Translations under genes and position numbers: made by a program | Shown here: positions 10,028 to 43,832 of the stretch, in pieces | Layout: each line of letters opens with the position of its first letter | Position numbering within the stretch: position 1 is the first letter of the stretch | From: Candidatus Caldisaccharidevorator malaysiensis | GTDB lineage: Bacteria > Armatimonadota > Fervidibacteria > Fervidibacterales > Fervidibacteraceae | DNA: 64,000 nt | Direction of reading: 5' to 3' | NCBI GenBank assembly: GCA_025057575.1 | Contig: JANXBO010000001.1 | Coordinates: 62,001 to 126,000 of the forward strand | The notes under the pieces: model-generated | Database searches by the model: none | Told to the model about the DNA's origin: nothing | What the model saw: only the letters and a program-made list of their open reading frames with translations

Positions 10028-10058
10028 GTGAGCGATAATCTATTTGAGGTGAAAGAGA

Positions 10059-10871
10059 GTGGCGGCGGAAGTCAGAGTCGGGGTCTTTGGAGGTTCGGGG
10101 CTCTACGATTGGCCCGGAGTCAAAGTTTTGGAAGAGCGCAAAGTGGAAACGCCCTATGGACCGCCGAGCGATGTAATCACTTTGGTCGAACTGGCAGGTC
10201 TAACCGTTGCCTTCCTGCCCCGGCACGGGCGACGGCATCAGTATCCACCCCACAAGATTCCTTACAAAGCCAATGTGTGGGCCTTGAAATCGTTGGGTGT
10301 GGAACGGGTTTTGGCGCCCAACGCCGTCGGAAGCCTTCAAACTCACATTCGTCCTGGCGATCTGGTCATCTGCGACCAGTTTGTGGACCGGACGCGCCAT
10401 CGGGACGATACCTTTTACAATGGACCCATTACCACTCATATCAGCACGGCAGACCCCTATTGCCCCCAACTAAGGCAAATTGCCATTGACGCCTGTCAGG
10501 AACTTCAATTGCCCTTTCACAAGGAGGGAACCGTAGTCGTCATTGAAGGTCCCCGTTTTTCCACCAAAGCCGAAAGTGCCTGGTTCACCAAAATGGGCTG
10601 GTCGGTCATTAATATGACTCAGTATCCGGAAGTGACCCTTGCCAGGGAACTGGAGATGTGCTACCTGAATATATCCCTCGTCACCGATTACGATACGGGT
10701 TTGGTCGCCGAGGGTTTGGCGGAACCGGTTTCCGCCGCAGAAGTGATGCGGTTGTTTCAACAGAACATTGAAAGGGTGCGCGGGTTGCTGGTCCGGATCA
10801 TAGAGAAGTTGCCGACAGAAAGGACCTGCTCTTGCGGTCGTGCCCTGGAGGCAGCCAGGGTGGAAGTGTGA
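10059..10871 (+). CDS. mtnP: S-methyl-5'-thioadenosine phosphorylase
   Basis: 270 residues of the purine nucleoside phosphorylase family 2. Seen: GVFGGSGLYDW phosphate loop at the N-terminus, the LPRHGRRHQYPPHKIPY segment, APNAVGSL, and the MTAP signature INMTQYPEVTLARELEMCY followed by LVTDYDTG. The enzyme splits methylthioadenosine with phosphate to adenine and 5-methylthioribose-1-phosphate. The start is GTG behind AGGTGAAAGAG. An adenine phosphoribosyltransferase gene follows 18 bases later, so the adenine released would be salvaged to AMP by the next product. The C-terminal tail has a CSCG pair seen in some MTAPs. Confidence 0.95.
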   Translation: MAAEVRVGVFGGSGLYDWPGVKVLEERKVETPYGPPSDVITLVELAGLTVAFLPRHGRRHQYPPHKIPYKANVWALKSLGVERVLAPNAVGSLQTHIRPGDLVICDQFVDRTRHRDDTFYNGPITTHISTADPYCPQLRQIAIDACQELQLPFHKEGTVVVIEGPRFSTKAESAWFTKMGWSVINMTQYPEVTLARELEMCYLNISLVTDYDTGLVAEGLAEPVSAAEVMRLFQQNIERVRGLLVRIIEKLPTERTCSCGRALEAARVEV

Positions 10872-10889
10872 GAAAGGGGGAGGATTGGT

Positions 10890-11426
10890 TTGATCACCGC
10901 AGAGACAGCCGAACGACTCAAACTGGCAATTCGCTCTATCCCCGACTTTCCTAAGCCAGGTGTCCTCTTTCGGGACATTACACCCGTCCTCCAGTCACCC
11001 GAGTTGTTTCGCCAAGTGATTGACGCCTTTACCGACATTTACGAGGGACGGAAGATTAATGTAGTAGCCGCCATTGAGTCTCGCGGTTTCATTTTTGCAG
11101 CGCCGGTGAGCCTGCGGCTCAACGCCGGTTTTGTCCCTCTGCGCAAATCCGGAAAATTGCCCTATATGACTTACAAGGTCCACTACTCTCTGGAATACGC
11201 CTTAGAAGCGATGGAGATGCACGTGGATGCCTTAAAGCCGGGTCAGCGGGTGCTGTTGATGGACGACCTGCTGGCGACGGGCGGGACGGCTCAGGCAGCC
11301 TGCCGGCTGATTCAGCAAGCGGGGGGCATTGTTGAATCCATCGCTTTCTTCATTGAATTGTCCGATCTTAAAGGGAGAGAGAAACTTCACGGCTACGAGG
11401 TCATCTCTTTGGTCCAATTCCCTTAA
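10890..11426 (+). CDS. apt: Adenine phosphoribosyltransferase
   Basis: 178 residues, the usual length. The N-terminus (SIPDFPKPGVLFRDITPVL) is diagnostic for Apt, and VLLMDDLLATGGTAQAA is the PRPP-binding loop. It forms AMP from adenine and PRPP. The start is TTG at 10890 with a strong GGGGGAGGA ribosome site ahead. It is placed directly after mtnP, giving a compact methylthioadenosine/adenine salvage pair. Confidence 0.96.
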   Translation: MITAETAERLKLAIRSIPDFPKPGVLFRDITPVLQSPELFRQVIDAFTDIYEGRKINVVAAIESRGFIFAAPVSLRLNAGFVPLRKSGKLPYMTYKVHYSLEYALEAMEMHVDALKPGQRVLLMDDLLATGGTAQAACRLIQQAGGIVESIAFFIELSDLKGREKLHGYEVISLVQFP

Positions 11427-37086: not shown

Positions 37087-38964
37087 TCACAAAACGAATT
37101 GTAGGATCCGCACATCATACGGGAGTAGTTTGAGGGATAAAGAAGCGGTTGGCGTTCGCTCTTGGTAGGAGGGTGTTTCCCCACCTCGTAATTGCCGAAG
37201 GCGCATCGTTTTTGCCGGAAGGGCTCCCAAAACCTCCACTTTCAGGTCGACGATGTCGGCAGTCGTGTTGACCAGAAGAAGGTTGCGCGCTGTTGCGGTG
37301 CTGCCAGCGAGGCAAAGGACCCCAGGGATGCTGGTCGTGGACGACACCAAAGCCGTTCCCACCGGAAAGTAGGTCTGGCACACCCATAACGCCCAGTAGA
37401 GGGGCGTCGGGATCGCTTCAGAATTCAGAAGCCCCCAGCCACCACCGCTGACCTTATATTGCAAAAGCGCTTCCGCTTTACCGGCTAACTGACAGAATAC
37501 GGCAACCAGCCAAGCGACGCCCAGCCCGGAGGAAACCCGTTGATCTAAGGCTTCGCCCTGGGCTCCCTTTTGCCAGTTGACGGCACATTCTGTCACGGCA
37601 AGAGGAACGCCCTTGGGCGGAAACAGGCGTTTCAGCCAATCCACCAGCCCTGTCAACGGCACTTGGTCAGGAAGATCAGATGGGACCGTCCATCGGGCAG
37701 CTGCCATCAGTTCGTCGTCGGATGTGGAGGTGAGACGGGAGCCGTAGAAGTGGACCGACAGAAAATCGGGTTTAAATGGCTGGGATAATAGGAGAGTCAG
37801 TCGTTCCCGCCAAGCCGCTGACTCACCGACGCCTCCTATCTGAATATTGGGCGCACTCCTCTTTAGGACAGTCATCACCCGTTGGAAGTAGTCGGCGCAC
37901 ATCTCCGGTTTCAGTCGTAGAGGGGGTTCCCTGGGTCTTTGAAAGATCTCATAGAGCCGCACGGTTGGCGATAAGCGCTGAGTAATGACCTGGCACTCCG
38001 CTTCAAAAATTCCACTCGTTAAGTCCTCAACGCTTCGTGGAGAGAGATTGACAACTGGCACCATCCTCAGCCCTTGCACCTGCTGGGCCCACCGCTGAAT
38101 TCGGGCAAGAGCCACCTCTAAACTTCCCTGTCGGGCGACTTCATCCATCTGGATGCGAACCCAGCCCAAACTGAGCCCCGCCAACCATTTTCTCGCCCTC
38201 GGGTCTTCTAAGAGTTCCAGGTTTTCAGAAGCAAAGTTCGTTCCCCACCGCAACCCGTTGATAGAGGTCACTGTCCTAAAGTCAACGACCAGACGAGCCC
38301 CTACGATTTTGGGACCCGGCAGGGGCTCCACAGCCGTCAAATCGTCTATAAAGAAGAAAAAGGGCAAAAACGGACCGACTTTCTCCAACCGCAACTCCCT
38401 GGTCCAACTGAGAAAAGGTCCCACTGATAAACCGTCTTCACTAACAAACTGACTCCAGTAAAGTTCCCGTCGCTCCCACTCATCGGGCAACCGCAACGGG
38501 CAGCGAAACAAGGTCTCTTTTCCATCTTGGTAAACGGCCAAAACAAGGAAGATTTCTGATGCACTGCCGTCGCCCAGAAGCCAGAGACTTAATCCTGGGA
38601 TTTTCTCTTTGACGAACCGCTCACCATCCACGGGAAAAACGAAGCGCACGACCTCGCCTGACTGGGCGGCCGAAACCAGAAAAAGTCCGCATCGGGATGA
38701 GGTCTGATGCCTCGGGACGATAACCGGCAACACCGCCCCTAATGGTTGCTTTCTGTTGGGTTTTTCTTCAGAACGGGTTGACCACTTACCAGTGCCCTCC
38801 TCAAAATTGTCCAGCAAGCGGGGCTGACCGGGCACGGGGCAACAGAAACAGCAGACCAATACGCAAAGGATCAGCGATCGCCAGTCGCCGCACGGAAACT
38901 TTCTGTTGATTGGGCGCTCCGAAAGAGGCTTGTTCTCACCAATAGGAAAGGGAGCACCAATCAT
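37087..38964 (-). CDS. Secreted TIM-barrel glycosidase-like protein with N-terminal carbohydrate-binding-like domain
   Basis: 625 residues. A hydrophobic Cys-rich signal (LILCVLVCCFCCPVPG, possible lipobox) precedes LLDNFEEGTGKWS, the start typical of CBM11/CIA30-like sandwiches. After about residue 220 comes a TIM-barrel pattern: RWGTNFAS, LGWVRIQMDE, VPVVNLSP, PDFLSVHFYG and a late PLAVTECAVNW with a candidate catalytic Glu. The C-terminus is beta-rich (RNLLLVNTTADIVDL). It recalls GH39/GH51-like clan A enzymes, but the acid/base Glu at strand 4 is not obvious (YEIFQRPRE). Substrate unknown. Its ATG overlaps the ATPase TGA. Confidence 0.65.
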   Translation of the reverse strand: MIGAPFPIGENKPLSERPINRKFPCGDWRSLILCVLVCCFCCPVPGQPRLLDNFEEGTGKWSTRSEEKPNRKQPLGAVLPVIVPRHQTSSRCGLFLVSAAQSGEVVRFVFPVDGERFVKEKIPGLSLWLLGDGSASEIFLVLAVYQDGKETLFRCPLRLPDEWERRELYWSQFVSEDGLSVGPFLSWTRELRLEKVGPFLPFFFFIDDLTAVEPLPGPKIVGARLVVDFRTVTSINGLRWGTNFASENLELLEDPRARKWLAGLSLGWVRIQMDEVARQGSLEVALARIQRWAQQVQGLRMVPVVNLSPRSVEDLTSGIFEAECQVITQRLSPTVRLYEIFQRPREPPLRLKPEMCADYFQRVMTVLKRSAPNIQIGGVGESAAWRERLTLLLSQPFKPDFLSVHFYGSRLTSTSDDELMAAARWTVPSDLPDQVPLTGLVDWLKRLFPPKGVPLAVTECAVNWQKGAQGEALDQRVSSGLGVAWLVAVFCQLAGKAEALLQYKVSGGGWGLLNSEAIPTPLYWALWVCQTYFPVGTALVSSTTSIPGVLCLAGSTATARNLLLVNTTADIVDLKVEVLGALPAKTMRLRQLRGGETPSYQERTPTASLSLKLLPYDVRILQFVL

Positions 38965-40856
38965 CTTAGGAGCCTTATGGCATTGAGGATAACGATCATA
39001 GCGCTGGCTTCGTGGATGACCGCTCCCCAGATGGGGTTGATCCAGCCCTGACTGGCAGCAACGATGGCGCCGATGTTGACAACCGTGCTAAAGAACAGGT
39101 TCTGCCGAATCACCGAGACAGTTCTTTTGGCGAGATGAAGGGCTTCGGGCATCTTCCTTAGATCGTCCGTCAAGAAGGCGAGATCGGCAACTTCCACAGC
39201 GATATCCGTTCCCGAGCGCCCCATCGCCACTCCCACGTCCGCAGCGGCGAGGGCAGGTCCATCATTAATCCCATCACCGACAAAAGCGACTTTGATGCCC
39301 GCAGAGCGCCAGTTCTCTATAAAGGCGGGCTTCTCCTCAGGAAGGAGCCCCGCATAGTATGTCGGAATGCCCAATGCGGAGGCGACGGAACGGGCGACTC
39401 GTTCGTTGTCGCCCGTCAGAATGGCGAGGTCCACGGCTTGTTGCTTTAAGATCCGGACGGCATCGCCTGCCTCTGCTCGCAGGGTATCCTGAAGACAGAT
39501 CAGTCCCTTCACCGCTCCCCCGACACTCACACCGAGAACAGTGTGACCGTTTTCCTCGTGACGGCTCGCCACGGACAAAACAGACTCAAGGTCCTGTTCC
39601 TTAAAAGATCCGACCCAACGAAGCCGACCGACGGCGACCGTCTGCCCGTTCACTCTTCCCGAGACGCCCTTGCCCGGCACCACCTGAAAGTCTGAAGGTT
39701 GCTCCCAAAGATCTTGCTGATCACGAGCGTAGGCGCAGATCGCCCGAGCAAAAGGATGTTCGCTCAATCGCTCCAAACTGGCAGCGAGACGGACAATCTC
39801 TTTCTCAGAAAGTTCCGATAAGGGGGTGACGCACGTAACGGAAGGTCGTCCTATCGTTAAGGTCCCCGTCTTGTCAAAAGCGGTCAACGTGACTTGCGCT
39901 GTCGCCTCCATCGCCCGACCGCCCTTGACCAGAATCGCTCGTTTGGCAGCCCGACCGATGCCCGCCACGATCGCCGTTGGTGTCGCCAAAACGAGAGCGC
40001 AAGGGCAAAAAACGATAAGGACCGTCACCGCTCGGATCATTTCGCCCGTTACCCACCAGACGACCCCTGCCGTCCCGATCGCCAAGGGGACATACCATTG
40101 AGCGAACCGATCCGCTAATCGCTCAATGGGCGCCTTTCGGGATCGGGCTTCTTCCATCAACCTCTTGATTTGACCGTAAGTCGTTTTGTCGCCGACTCGT
40201 TCACATCGGATTTCCAAAGGTCCCGTAAGATTGATGGTCCCGGCGAAAGCGAAGTCTCCAGGACCCTTGTCAGCGGGAACCGACTCGCCGGTGACGGTGC
40301 TCTCATCCAGGGACGATGCGCCCGAAACGATGACCCCATCAACGGGGAGCCTCTCTCCCGCCCGCACGATAACCCGATCGCCGACCTGCACCTTCTCAAT
40401 AGGGATTTCCTCTTCCCGACCGTCTCGGCGAACTAAAGCCGTCTTTGGAAGACCGACCAAAAGGGAGGCGACCGCCCGCTCCGCTCGGGCAACGGTCCAT
40501 TGTTCCAACAGCCCACCACCCAGCAGCATCACGCCGACGACCGCTCCCGCATGATACTCCCCCCCATAAAGGCTGGCGAGAATGGCTAAACCGACCAAGA
40601 CGTCCACATTCCATTTCCCCGCCCGAAGGGTCTCGAGAGCCGACTTCAGAATCAGCGTCAGCGAGGCAACCGCCGACAATGCATACAGCCAGTCACTGGC
40701 GGAAGGTAACAGGAAATGACTGATCCATCCGCTCATTAGCAGAAGAGCGGCGATGGCGATCACGTTCCCCTCACGACTCTTCAGTAGGGAAAGAAAAGTT
40801 GTTGCGGAGCCTTCAAAACGACAACAATCTGGGCAGGACTGGTTTGTTAATTCCAT
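38961..40856 (-). CDS. P1B-type heavy-metal translocating ATPase
   Basis: 631 residues. Seen in order: an N-terminal SCPDCC cluster instead of an HMA domain; TM helices; the TGES actuator loop (DESTVTGESVP); CPC in TM6 (VFCPCALVLATPT); phosphorylation site DKTGTLT; SEHPFA; the nucleotide domain; and hinge VGDGINDGPALAAADVGVAMG. The last helix reads WGAVIHEASAMIVILNAIRLL. CPC is usual for Cu+ and Zn/Cd pumps, while a His-Glu in the last helices is seen in the Co/Fe-type P1B-4 group, so the metal is uncertain. It sits 18 bases after the selenocysteine peroxiredoxin gene and overlaps the next gene by ATGA, which suggests an oxidative-stress and metal operon. Confidence 0.9.
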   Translation of the reverse strand: MELTNQSCPDCCRFEGSATTFLSLLKSREGNVIAIAALLLMSGWISHFLLPSASDWLYALSAVASLTLILKSALETLRAGKWNVDVLVGLAILASLYGGEYHAGAVVGVMLLGGGLLEQWTVARAERAVASLLVGLPKTALVRRDGREEEIPIEKVQVGDRVIVRAGERLPVDGVIVSGASSLDESTVTGESVPADKGPGDFAFAGTINLTGPLEIRCERVGDKTTYGQIKRLMEEARSRKAPIERLADRFAQWYVPLAIGTAGVVWWVTGEMIRAVTVLIVFCPCALVLATPTAIVAGIGRAAKRAILVKGGRAMEATAQVTLTAFDKTGTLTIGRPSVTCVTPLSELSEKEIVRLAASLERLSEHPFARAICAYARDQQDLWEQPSDFQVVPGKGVSGRVNGQTVAVGRLRWVGSFKEQDLESVLSVASRHEENGHTVLGVSVGGAVKGLICLQDTLRAEAGDAVRILKQQAVDLAILTGDNERVARSVASALGIPTYYAGLLPEEKPAFIENWRSAGIKVAFVGDGINDGPALAAADVGVAMGRSGTDIAVEVADLAFLTDDLRKMPEALHLAKRTVSVIRQNLFFSTVVNIGAIVAASQGWINPIWGAVIHEASAMIVILNAIRLLR

Positions 40857-40874: not shown

Positions 40875-41423
40875 TTATGACACTGCGCCTTCCTCTTCTC
40901 TGTTATCCTTCTGCAACGATTTCAGGACCTTAACGAGGTCCTCACCATGGGTCGCAACATTGACTTTTTGATCAACAAAGCGAATGATCCCTGTCGGATC
41001 AATGATAAAAGTGATTCGTTTTGCCAAACCCCTTTCCTGATCCCAAACACCGAATTGGCGCGCCACGGACCCGTTTTCGTCCGCAATGAGAGAAAAGGGA
41101 AGGTCCTCGGCTTGGGCAAAAGCCTTCTGACGGGTGACGCTGTCAGCACTGACGGCTACGATTGACGTTCCCAGTTGCTCTAATTTCCCCCCTGCCGACC
41201 GCAGGGATCTCATTTGGAGGGTTCATCCGGATGTGTGCGCCTTCACAAAAAAACTGAGGATGAGCCACCTACCCTTGAAGTCGTCGAGACGAACTTCTTT
41301 GCCTTCCTGGTTTCGGGCTTGGAAGAAGGGTGCTTTCTGACCCGGCGTTAGAGGTGCTGGGGGCTCCCCGCTGACCCCGCCACCGGTGTCCACCAGCCAG
41401 CACAGCCCCATCAGGTATCCCAT
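40875..41423 (-). CDS. Peroxiredoxin with in-frame UGA at the peroxidatic cysteine (probable selenoprotein)
   Basis: Read through one TGA (41225-41223) the frame gives 182 residues of a PrxQ/BCP-like peroxiredoxin. It has APFFQARNQEGKEVRLDDF, then WLILSFFVKAHTSG-[TGA]-TLQMRSLR, IVAVSADSVTRQKAF, LPFSLIADENGSVARQFGV, and ITFIIDPTGIIRFV. The TGA is codon 67 and falls exactly where the family has its catalytic Cys (T-P-G-C-T). Both halves are in one frame, so no frameshift is involved. A hairpin suited to be a SECIS follows. I infer insertion of selenocysteine, making a thiol-dependent peroxidase with a Sec nucleophile. Alternatives are a Cys-to-stop mutation or a read error. The start ATG 41423 is weakly supported; the metal ATPase follows in the operon. 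Confidence 0.8.
41190..41206 (-). promoter_or_regulatory. SECIS-like hairpin after the UGA codon
   Basis: On the minus strand CCCTGC (41206-41201), loop GGTCG (41200-41196) and GCAGGG (41195-41190) form a perfect 6-bp stem. The loop starts 22 bases after the TGA. Bacterial SECIS elements lie inside the coding region just after UGA and present a short loop with a G-U that SelB reads. The E. coli fdhF loop is GGUCU, flanked by the same GC closing region. A U-G pair can extend the stem by one. The position and loop agree; SelB binding is not shown. Confidence 0.7.
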
Positions 41424-41562
41424 TGACTCGTTCTCTTCTCCTTTCCGTCATTGCCTGTCCCCGATAAATTTTGAACCAGTAAAGACCTATTGGCTAATTG
41501 GGGACGCATCAAGGGTCTCTGGACGCAAAGTAAAGTTCCAAGGCGCGGAGGAAAATTGTGAA

Positions 41563-42354
41563 TTGAAGGAAAAAGACAAGTTTCGCCTCTATCAAAGGAC
41601 CAGGGACCCAAAATTACGGGAGGAACTGGTTCAATTACACCGACCGTTAGCCGAGCATATCGCCCGTCAGTTTGTTGGGATCGGGGAGCCTTTGGAAGAT
41701 TTGGTCCAGGTCGCTCTCATCGGGCTGATTAAGGCTATTGATCGCTACGATGTGGACCGGGGCACCGCCTTTACGACTTTTGCCTGGTATCACATTAAGG
41801 GTGAGATTAGTCACTATTTGAGAGATCAGGGGAAATTGATCGGTGAGCCCGCCTGGCTTCAAGAAGCCCGAATCCGAGTGGAGCGGGCACGACAGTATTT
41901 GACCCAGAAACTGGGAAGAGAGCCGACGACGGAGGAGATTGTCCAGGAGTCTCGGTTGACCACAGAGGTGGTGGAGAAGGTCCAGAGCACCGCCGGTCTC
42001 TTCCGCGTTTCTTCCCTTGAGGAGGTTGGGTCCGACGAAGCCGACGAGTCGGTGTCCTTAGAGACCACCGTCTTGGACCAGCACGAGATGGACGCAGAGC
42101 AGCAGTTCTGGATTCGCCGAGCGGTGACCCGCCTCCCAGACCTTCAACGGAAAATTATTGAATTACTGTTTTGGAGAGACCTAAGTCAGACCGAGATTGC
42201 GGAAATTTTAGGTGTGTCGGTGACTTACGTCAGTTATCTTTACAAGGAAGCAAGAAACAACCTCCGGCGGTTGCTGTCCGGACAAGTGGTTCGTCCCCGA
42301 GAAAGGGGTCGTCAACGGAAAAAAAGGAAAGGGGAAGCCGACGAGCAAAAATGA
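41563..42354 (+). CDS. Sigma-70 family factor of the SigB/SigF/SigG type (group 3)
   Basis: About 263 residues from TTG 41563, which has GGAGG 11 bases ahead. A longer frame from 41386 would run into the divergent peroxiredoxin gene. Region 2 holds LEDLVQVALIGLIKAIDRYD and AFTTFAWYHIKGEISHYLRD, characteristic of SigB/F-type factors. Region 3 (LGREPTTEEIVQES) and region 4 (DLSQTEIAEILGVSVTYVSYLYKEA) follow, then a basic tail (RERGRQRKKRKGE). It probably controls a stress or developmental regulon. The stop overlaps the cysS start by ATGA, so the pair is co-translated. Target promoters unknown. Confidence 0.9.
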   Translation: MKEKDKFRLYQRTRDPKLREELVQLHRPLAEHIARQFVGIGEPLEDLVQVALIGLIKAIDRYDVDRGTAFTTFAWYHIKGEISHYLRDQGKLIGEPAWLQEARIRVERARQYLTQKLGREPTTEEIVQESRLTTEVVEKVQSTAGLFRVSSLEEVGSDEADESVSLETTVLDQHEMDAEQQFWIRRAVTRLPDLQRKIIELLFWRDLSQTEIAEILGVSVTYVSYLYKEARNNLRRLLSGQVVRPRERGRQRKKRKGEADEQK

Positions 42355-43832
42355 AGCAAAAAAACTTCACGATCCGCCTCTACAACACATTGACTAAGAG
42401 AAAAGAACCCTTACATCCGCGGACGGAAAAAGTTCTGCATATGTATGTCTGCGGTTTAACCCCTTATGACAGTATGCACATCGGACACGCTCGGACCTTC
42501 ACCATTTTTGACGCTTTCCGACGGTTCCTGGAACATCTGGGGTGGACGGTCATCCACGTCCAAAACTGGACTGATATAGACGACAAGATTATTCAAAGGG
42601 CAAACGAAAAGGGCTGTTCGTCTTCTGAACTTGCCGAGGATTACATTGCCGAGGCAATGACCGATTGGCAAAACTTGGGTCTTTGCCCACCTCATATAAT
42701 GCCCAGAGTCACCGATCACATCCCTGAGATCATCCAGAGCATTGGTGAGCTGATAAATGGGGGGTATGCGTATCAGGCAGATGGAGACGTGTATTTTTCG
42801 GTCGCCCGCTATCAGAACGAGTTCGGCGACTACGGTGATCTGTCGGGACAGAACCTGGAAGAGATTCAGGCGGGTGCCCGAGTGGAGCCGGGGGAGCACA
42901 AGAGGAATCCCATTGACTTCGCTTTATGGAAACGGGCAAAGGAAGGGGAGCCCTTTTGGGATAGCCCCTGGGGCAGGGGAAGACCCGGCTGGCATATTGA
43001 ATGCTCGGTCATGTCCCTAAAGTATCTGGGTCATCCGATAGACCTTCACGGGGCAGCCGTTGAACTGACCTTTCCTCATCACGAAAATGAGAAAGCCCAG
43101 TCCCAAGCCCTCGTCCGGGTCCAACCCGTTGTCCGTCACTGGATGCACTGCGGAGTCCTGAATGTGGCGGGCGACAAGATGAGCAAGTCGTTAGGCAACA
43201 TCATTCCTCTGTCCGAAGCCCTTAAGAAGTCTGGTCCCAATGACCTGAGGCTCCTTTTTCTTTCCACCCACTACCGTTCCCCTCTTAATTACACAGACGA
43301 CCTGATGGCAGGTGCCCGTGCCTCTGTCCGTCGCCTGTCGGAAGCACTGACTCAGGTCTTGCAGGTCCCGTCTCAACCCACAAAAGAAGAAGACACCACT
43401 TCTTCCAAGAAAAGCATTAGTCTCTTTCAGCTGGGTCACCAATCCACTGACCTTTTCTACCAAGCCCTTGCCGATGACTTCAATACAGCGGAAGCCCTCG
43501 GCTACGTTTTCCGGATGGTCGGCGGCATCCTAACGACCTTGGCTTTGGAGCGGGAGGGACTCTCCCCCCGCCAGAAGGAGGCGCTTCTGTTCCTTTTTGG
43601 AAAGATCAAATCCTGTTTAACCGTTTTGGGCTTTGATGTGGACCAGATGGTCACCCCTCCAGTCATCCAAGACGAAATGGCACAGGATCTAATGACCCTT
43701 CTCATTGAACTGAGGCAGAAACTGAGGGCGGAAAAATTATTTTCTCTTGCTGATTGGATCCGATCCTCCTTGGGCGAGAAGGGAATCATATTGGAAGACG
43801 GACCAGAGGGGACCCGGTGGCGAAGGAAATAG
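42351..43832 (+). CDS. cysS: Cysteinyl-tRNA synthetase
   Basis: 493 residues. Motifs: YVCGLTPYDSMHIGHAR (zinc Cys and HIGH), the WHIECSVMS zinc ligand, FPHHENEKAQS, and KMSKS in GDKMSKSLGN. The DALR-like anticodon region and C-terminal domain complete the class Ia enzyme. It charges tRNA-Cys. ATG 42351 overlaps the sigma gene stop (ATGA); the much longer frame from 42171 is only read-back through the sigma gene. Coupling of an essential synthetase to a stress sigma factor is unusual but plausible as an operon of convenience. Confidence 0.96.
   Translation: MKQKNFTIRLYNTLTKRKEPLHPRTEKVLHMYVCGLTPYDSMHIGHARTFTIFDAFRRFLEHLGWTVIHVQNWTDIDDKIIQRANEKGCSSSELAEDYIAEAMTDWQNLGLCPPHIMPRVTDHIPEIIQSIGELINGGYAYQADGDVYFSVARYQNEFGDYGDLSGQNLEEIQAGARVEPGEHKRNPIDFALWKRAKEGEPFWDSPWGRGRPGWHIECSVMSLKYLGHPIDLHGAAVELTFPHHENEKAQSQALVRVQPVVRHWMHCGVLNVAGDKMSKSLGNIIPLSEALKKSGPNDLRLLFLSTHYRSPLNYTDDLMAGARASVRRLSEALTQVLQVPSQPTKEEDTTSSKKSISLFQLGHQSTDLFYQALADDFNTAEALGYVFRMVGGILTTLALEREGLSPRQKEALLFLFGKIKSCLTVLGFDVDQMVTPPVIQDEMAQDLMTLLIELRQKLRAEKLFSLADWIRSSLGEKGIILEDGPEGTRWRRK

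Follow-up and report, generated by a model that had tools for sequence, protein, structure and literature searches.

A peroxiredoxin gene with an in-frame TGA at the peroxidatic position, probably encoding a selenoprotein, in Candidatus Caldisaccharidevorator malaysiensis

Selenocysteine peroxiredoxins and the reading frame of the gene

Peroxiredoxins with selenocysteine (Sec) in the TxxU motif of the PF00578/COG1225 domain are a catalogued family (PMC1794560, PMC1088965, PMC2398784, PMC13188914), which has been on record since at least 2001-2006, with family listings in 2005-2008. The collections hold 12 Sec peroxiredoxin genes (PMC1794560), 43 sequences (PMC1088965) and 253 sequences (PMC2398784), and one member, PrxU of Eubacterium acidaminophilum, was studied experimentally (Sohling 2001, as it is cited in PMC13188914). 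Additionally, selenoproteins and sel genes have been reported in Planctomycetes (PMC4807772). The gene described here belongs to this already known selenoprotein family and brings no change to known principles. It shares with the catalogued members the domain, the position of Sec, a hairpin after the UGA and, as predicted, decoding by SelB and tRNA-Sec; it differs from them by a Val in place of the Pro of the PxxxTxxU motif and by forming its own clade with a single relative, L007.

The gene is located on the reverse strand at 41423-40875 of the window (the whole stretch of 64,000 nucleotides that was analysed). It is a single frame running from ATG to TAA, which is interrupted only by the TGA at 41225-41223: this codon is preceded by 66 sense codons and followed by 115, with no further stop until the TAA. 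When the TGA is read as U, the product has 182 amino acids and contains the motif FFVKAHTSGUTLQMRSLR with Sec67 in T-S-G-U-T. The read-through product gives one continuous AhpC-TSA match across the TGA (PF00578, residues 27-149, profile positions 1-123 of 124; 128.5 bits, 1.7e-37), and the domain is present in the window protein with T-x-x-U at its peroxidatic site. The frame and the unbroken domain match thus bear out the claim of the first-pass annotation that two halves lie in one frame, split only by this TGA. In the alignment codon 67 falls into the column of the peroxidatic Cys of the Cys homologues, and among 66 aligned homologues with a TxxU or TxxC site the codon at this column is TGA in 17 cases and TGC or TGT in 49. 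The TGA stands therefore exactly at the peroxidatic Cys codon, and the same counts agree with the earlier opinion that it did not hit this codon by chance.

Fold, catalytic residues and gene neighbourhood

The structure predicted for the read-through protein has high confidence within the domain (mean pLDDT 89.8), and among solved structures it comes closest to Bcp/PrxQ and AhpE peroxiredoxins. Sec67 stands at the start of the helix 65-83 of this model, where peroxiredoxins of this fold carry their peroxidatic residue. Thr64, Sec67 and Arg136 occupy the expected catalytic positions and are invariant in the alignment. The best NCBIfam match, over the full length, is to the Bcp/PrxQ model (thioredoxin-dependent thiol peroxidase, NF006960; 104.7 bits), and Bcp1 of Sulfolobus (3drn) is among the best fold matches; however, the window protein scores below the 140-bit cut-off of the model, has Sec for the peroxidatic Cys and lacks the resolving Cys at +5 (U67-T-L-Q-M-R), with no Cys anywhere after residue 67. 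A resolving Cys at +5 is found in many, not all, PrxQ/Bcp members. The initial label of the protein as 'PrxQ-like' can be kept for the fold and the nearest family, but not in the sense of the NCBI Bcp/PrxQ equivalog, since both the score and the +5 residue fall short of it. AhpE of Mycobacterium, likewise one of the closest solved structures (TM up to 0.89 by target length), is a 1-Cys peroxiredoxin that has a single catalytic chalcogen and relies on an external reductant; it has Cys where the window protein has Sec, and the identity is about 29%. PrxU (NF040737) is a Sec peroxiredoxin of the same superfamily, but the cut-off of its model is 270 bits and the window protein reaches 76.8, so it is not an equivalog.

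The next gene downstream (38961-40856, reverse strand) encodes a heavy-metal P1B-type ATPase (TIGR01525, 587 bits, cut-off 346), and its ORF begins 18 bases past the peroxiredoxin stop. The ATPase has a CPC and a C-terminal HEASA motif; it scores above the cut-offs of both the Cd and the Cu subfamily models, so the metal is uncertain. It is followed, with a 4-base overlap, by the gene of a 625-residue protein (37087-38964, reverse strand) with no Pfam or NCBIfam match, a part of which resembles a glycoside-hydrolase-like barrel by eye only. On the forward strand there are a divergent SigB/SigF/SigG-like sigma factor gene (41386-42354) and cysS, encoding cysteinyl-tRNA synthetase (42171-43832, with the domain from about residue 68). 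The sigma factor ORF as listed (GTG at 41386) overlaps the 5' end of the peroxiredoxin gene, but the sigma domains start near residue 76-81, so the true start is probably downstream of 41386. The sigma factor and cysS are conserved neighbours in the L007 locus, where a WD40-type repeat frame and no ATPase was seen by eye downstream of the peroxiredoxin. The first-pass annotation had placed the gene at the head of a three-gene operon with the metal ATPase: such a common transcript is plausible here, with the ATPase gene probably co-transcribed, but the arrangement is not conserved in L007, so conservation gives no support for a functional tie to metal transport.

If Sec is inserted, the protein might still not be a peroxidase in the cell, but act with altered chemistry as a thiol oxidoreductase or as a sensor that shares the fold, perhaps serving metal or metalloid stress through the ATPase. 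Val60 stands where the Pro of PxxxTxxC/U is nearly always found, and L007 has Val as well; this common substitution, the missing +5 Cys and the adjoining heavy-metal ATPase would fit such a role. Without the Pro, standard peroxidase chemistry is less certain; the assignment as a selenoprotein is not affected. On the other hand the invariant Thr64, Sec67 and Arg136, each where a catalytic residue is expected, the Bcp and AhpE peroxiredoxins as nearest solved folds and the absence of an adjacent ATPase in L007 argue for a peroxidase, and we consider a function outside peroxide reduction improbable. We give only slight credence, furthermore, to the idea that the window protein and L007 represent a distinct one-Sec lineage in which Val for the loop Pro and the lack of a resolving Cys go together with an altered selenolate geometry or with an external reductant dedicated to it, and which may act with the neighbouring ATPase under metal or metalloid stress.

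Conservation of the TGA codon and the selenocysteine machinery

A pseudogene or a sequencing error, in which TGC or TGT was changed to TGA by a point change and the peroxiredoxin was broken, deserves attention since TGC, TGT and TGG are each one base away from TGA and since the genome of the window is a fragmented assembly (102 contigs, 2.78 Mb, contamination estimate 2.3%). For relatives, 61 genomes sampled across the phylum were searched. Apart from the genome of the window itself, the best match is L007 in genome G001, which belongs to the same family but to a different genus; L007 has 54% identity and carries TGA at the same codon. The differences between the two genes at codon positions 1, 2 and 3 number 44, 29 and 75 after the TGA (104 codons) and 16, 10 and 26 before it (44 codons); they are concentrated at third positions on both sides, so both parts evolve as protein. 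Disrupted coding in close relatives, which the first-pass annotation had named as evidence that would speak against a selenoprotein, was not seen, as the coding of L007 is intact on both sides of the TGA. A TGA kept at the same codon in another genus makes a local sequencing error not credible. A broken gene is also opposed by the many homologues at greater distance that carry this TGA, by the long stretch of sense codons past it and by the full Sec machinery of the genome. The independent conservation in L007 refutes it in practice, and its probability is very small.

On a tree of the 66 homologues, built without the Sec/Cys column, at least 7 to 10 changes between Sec and Cys took place. On this tree the window protein pairs with L007 (support 100/97) in a small clade of its own, both members of which have Sec. 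The peroxiredoxin gene adds one more case to the exchange of Sec and Cys that is known for peroxiredoxins. When the genome contigs were searched with an alignment of two sequences, 33 loci were found, mostly Cys homologues, and none of them was close to the window protein.

Other arrangements of Sec were observed among the homologous loci. L016 (G055:C305:9415-10302) has two tandem Sec peroxiredoxin domains in a single open frame, and both domains have a TxGU and a TGA of their own. In L055, L056, L060 and L092, of the AhpC/Prx1 type, the motif FTFVUPTE has TGA where typical 2-Cys peroxiredoxins have their peroxidatic Cys, and in the AhpC/TSA-like L058 and L066 Sec is the first residue of a W-U-P-x-C motif, a UxxC form.

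The first-pass annotation had proposed a search for selA, selB, selC and selD, and all four were found in the genome of the window, on contigs other than that of the window: selA with 560 bits (cut-off 268), selB with 409 bits (cut-off 242), selD with 384 bits (cut-off 125) and tRNA-Sec (selC) with 77.7 bits (Rfam gathering score 47), the same tRNA being called tRNA-SeC with anticodon TCA by ARAGORN. The selD gene (L045, contig C25) has its own in-frame TGA in SPKGGUACKI, the known Sec site of SelD, and is itself a selenoprotein gene. Two TlpA/thioredoxin-like proteins of the same genome, L050 (contig C36) and L051 (contig C31), with UGPC and UGAC motifs, are likely selenoproteins, with a hairpin directly after each UGA (e.g. 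GUGCGGA-GGU-UCCGCAC); a comparable UGPC protein, L052, occurs in the sister genome. Besides the peroxiredoxin and selD, the genome of the window has at least two further redox genes, TlpA-like, with UGA at a cysteine position.

Among the sampled genomes the machinery was seen in 13 of the 15 with TGA at a Cys position in a match to the window protein, which include some AhpC-like and thioredoxin-like matches and not PrxQ-like ones alone, versus 23 of the 46 others (Fisher p = 0.011). The machinery was counted as present when selB was above its curated cut-off or tRNA-Sec reached about 60 bits or more; for the tRNA a bar higher than the gathering score was chosen, as tRNAs of other kinds score 47-58 bits. 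In two of the 15 genomes, G002 (61% complete) and G024 (88% complete), no Sec machinery was seen, which may be due to the incompleteness of the assemblies.

If TGA stood for an ordinary amino acid, be it Trp, Gly or Cys, throughout the organism, the good read-through protein of this locus would also result. Such a reassignment has next to no probability and is not needed: in the window, 12 of 33 large non-overlapping ORFs have TGA as their stop, the in-frame TGA at 10869 separates two unrelated complete genes, the tRNA reading TGA is tRNA-Sec by both Rfam and ARAGORN, and the window does not show in-frame TGAs scattered over many essential genes. The earlier statement that TGA is a normal stop elsewhere in the window, with no reassigned code, is in agreement with the count of the ORF ends.

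A scan of the entire window returned one other strong-looking TGA-split candidate, at 10053-11423 on the forward strand, which was rejected because its two sides are complete unrelated genes. There a PNP_UDP_1 phosphorylase and a phosphoribosyltransferase lie back to back in one frame with the ordinary TGA at 10869, a false positive for selenoprotein scans.

Downstream hairpin and proposed function

A SECIS-like hairpin (UCCCUGC-GGUCG-GCAGGGG) is predicted at 41207-41189 on the reverse strand, beginning 15 bases after the TGA, with 7 pairs (one G-U) and a GGUCG loop. L007 has a hairpin in the same register, with one compensatory pair: 41205/41191 is C-G in the window and G-C in L007, a change that is synonymous on one side and replaces Gly with Ala on the other. 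The 63-base stretch around the hairpin had no excess stability compared to dinucleotide shuffles (z 0.33). For the local hairpin the comparison was therefore made with synonymous recodings, drawn with the codon usage of the window; 10 of 300 recodings were as stable or more for the window hairpin and 8 of 300 for that of L007 (about 3%). Local hairpins are more stable after TGA (n=17) than after TGC/TGT (n=49), with means of -9.2 versus -4.5 kcal/mol (p = 1e-7; thioredoxin-like rows, in which U is three residues earlier, were left out), a comparison confounded by G+C content after the codon (60% versus 53%) and by relatedness. These data are suggestive of a SECIS-like element: the hairpin has the type and the location to be expected of one, which supports the selenoprotein reading and is not decisive alone.

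The first-pass suggestion of a probable selenoprotein is supported, and it passes every test that sequence permits; as far as these could be checked, none of the three refuting findings that the first-pass annotation had named turned up. We hold it almost certain that the gene encodes a functional Sec peroxiredoxin, in which the UGA is decoded through SelB and the hairpin, Sec67 is the peroxidatic residue and an external thiol probably reduces it. According to the proposed mechanism SelB, recruited by the hairpin 41207-41189 just downstream in the mRNA, and Sec-tRNA(UCA) would read the UGA at 41225-41223 as selenocysteine. The selenolate at residue 67, with Thr64 and Arg136 as its conserved partners, would attack peroxides and be oxidised to selenenic acid. 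As the protein lacks a resolving Cys at the PrxQ position and has no Cys after Sec67, recycling would probably proceed through an external thiol, as in AhpE-type 1-Cys peroxiredoxins. Co-expression with the metal ATPase, on the common transcript considered above, would be a further feature of the locus.

In automatic annotation this peroxiredoxin gene would be logged as two fragments or as a pseudogene. Its right reading recovers the closest PrxQ-like peroxiredoxin found in the genome of the window, and it presents the organism as a selenium user with several selenoproteins.
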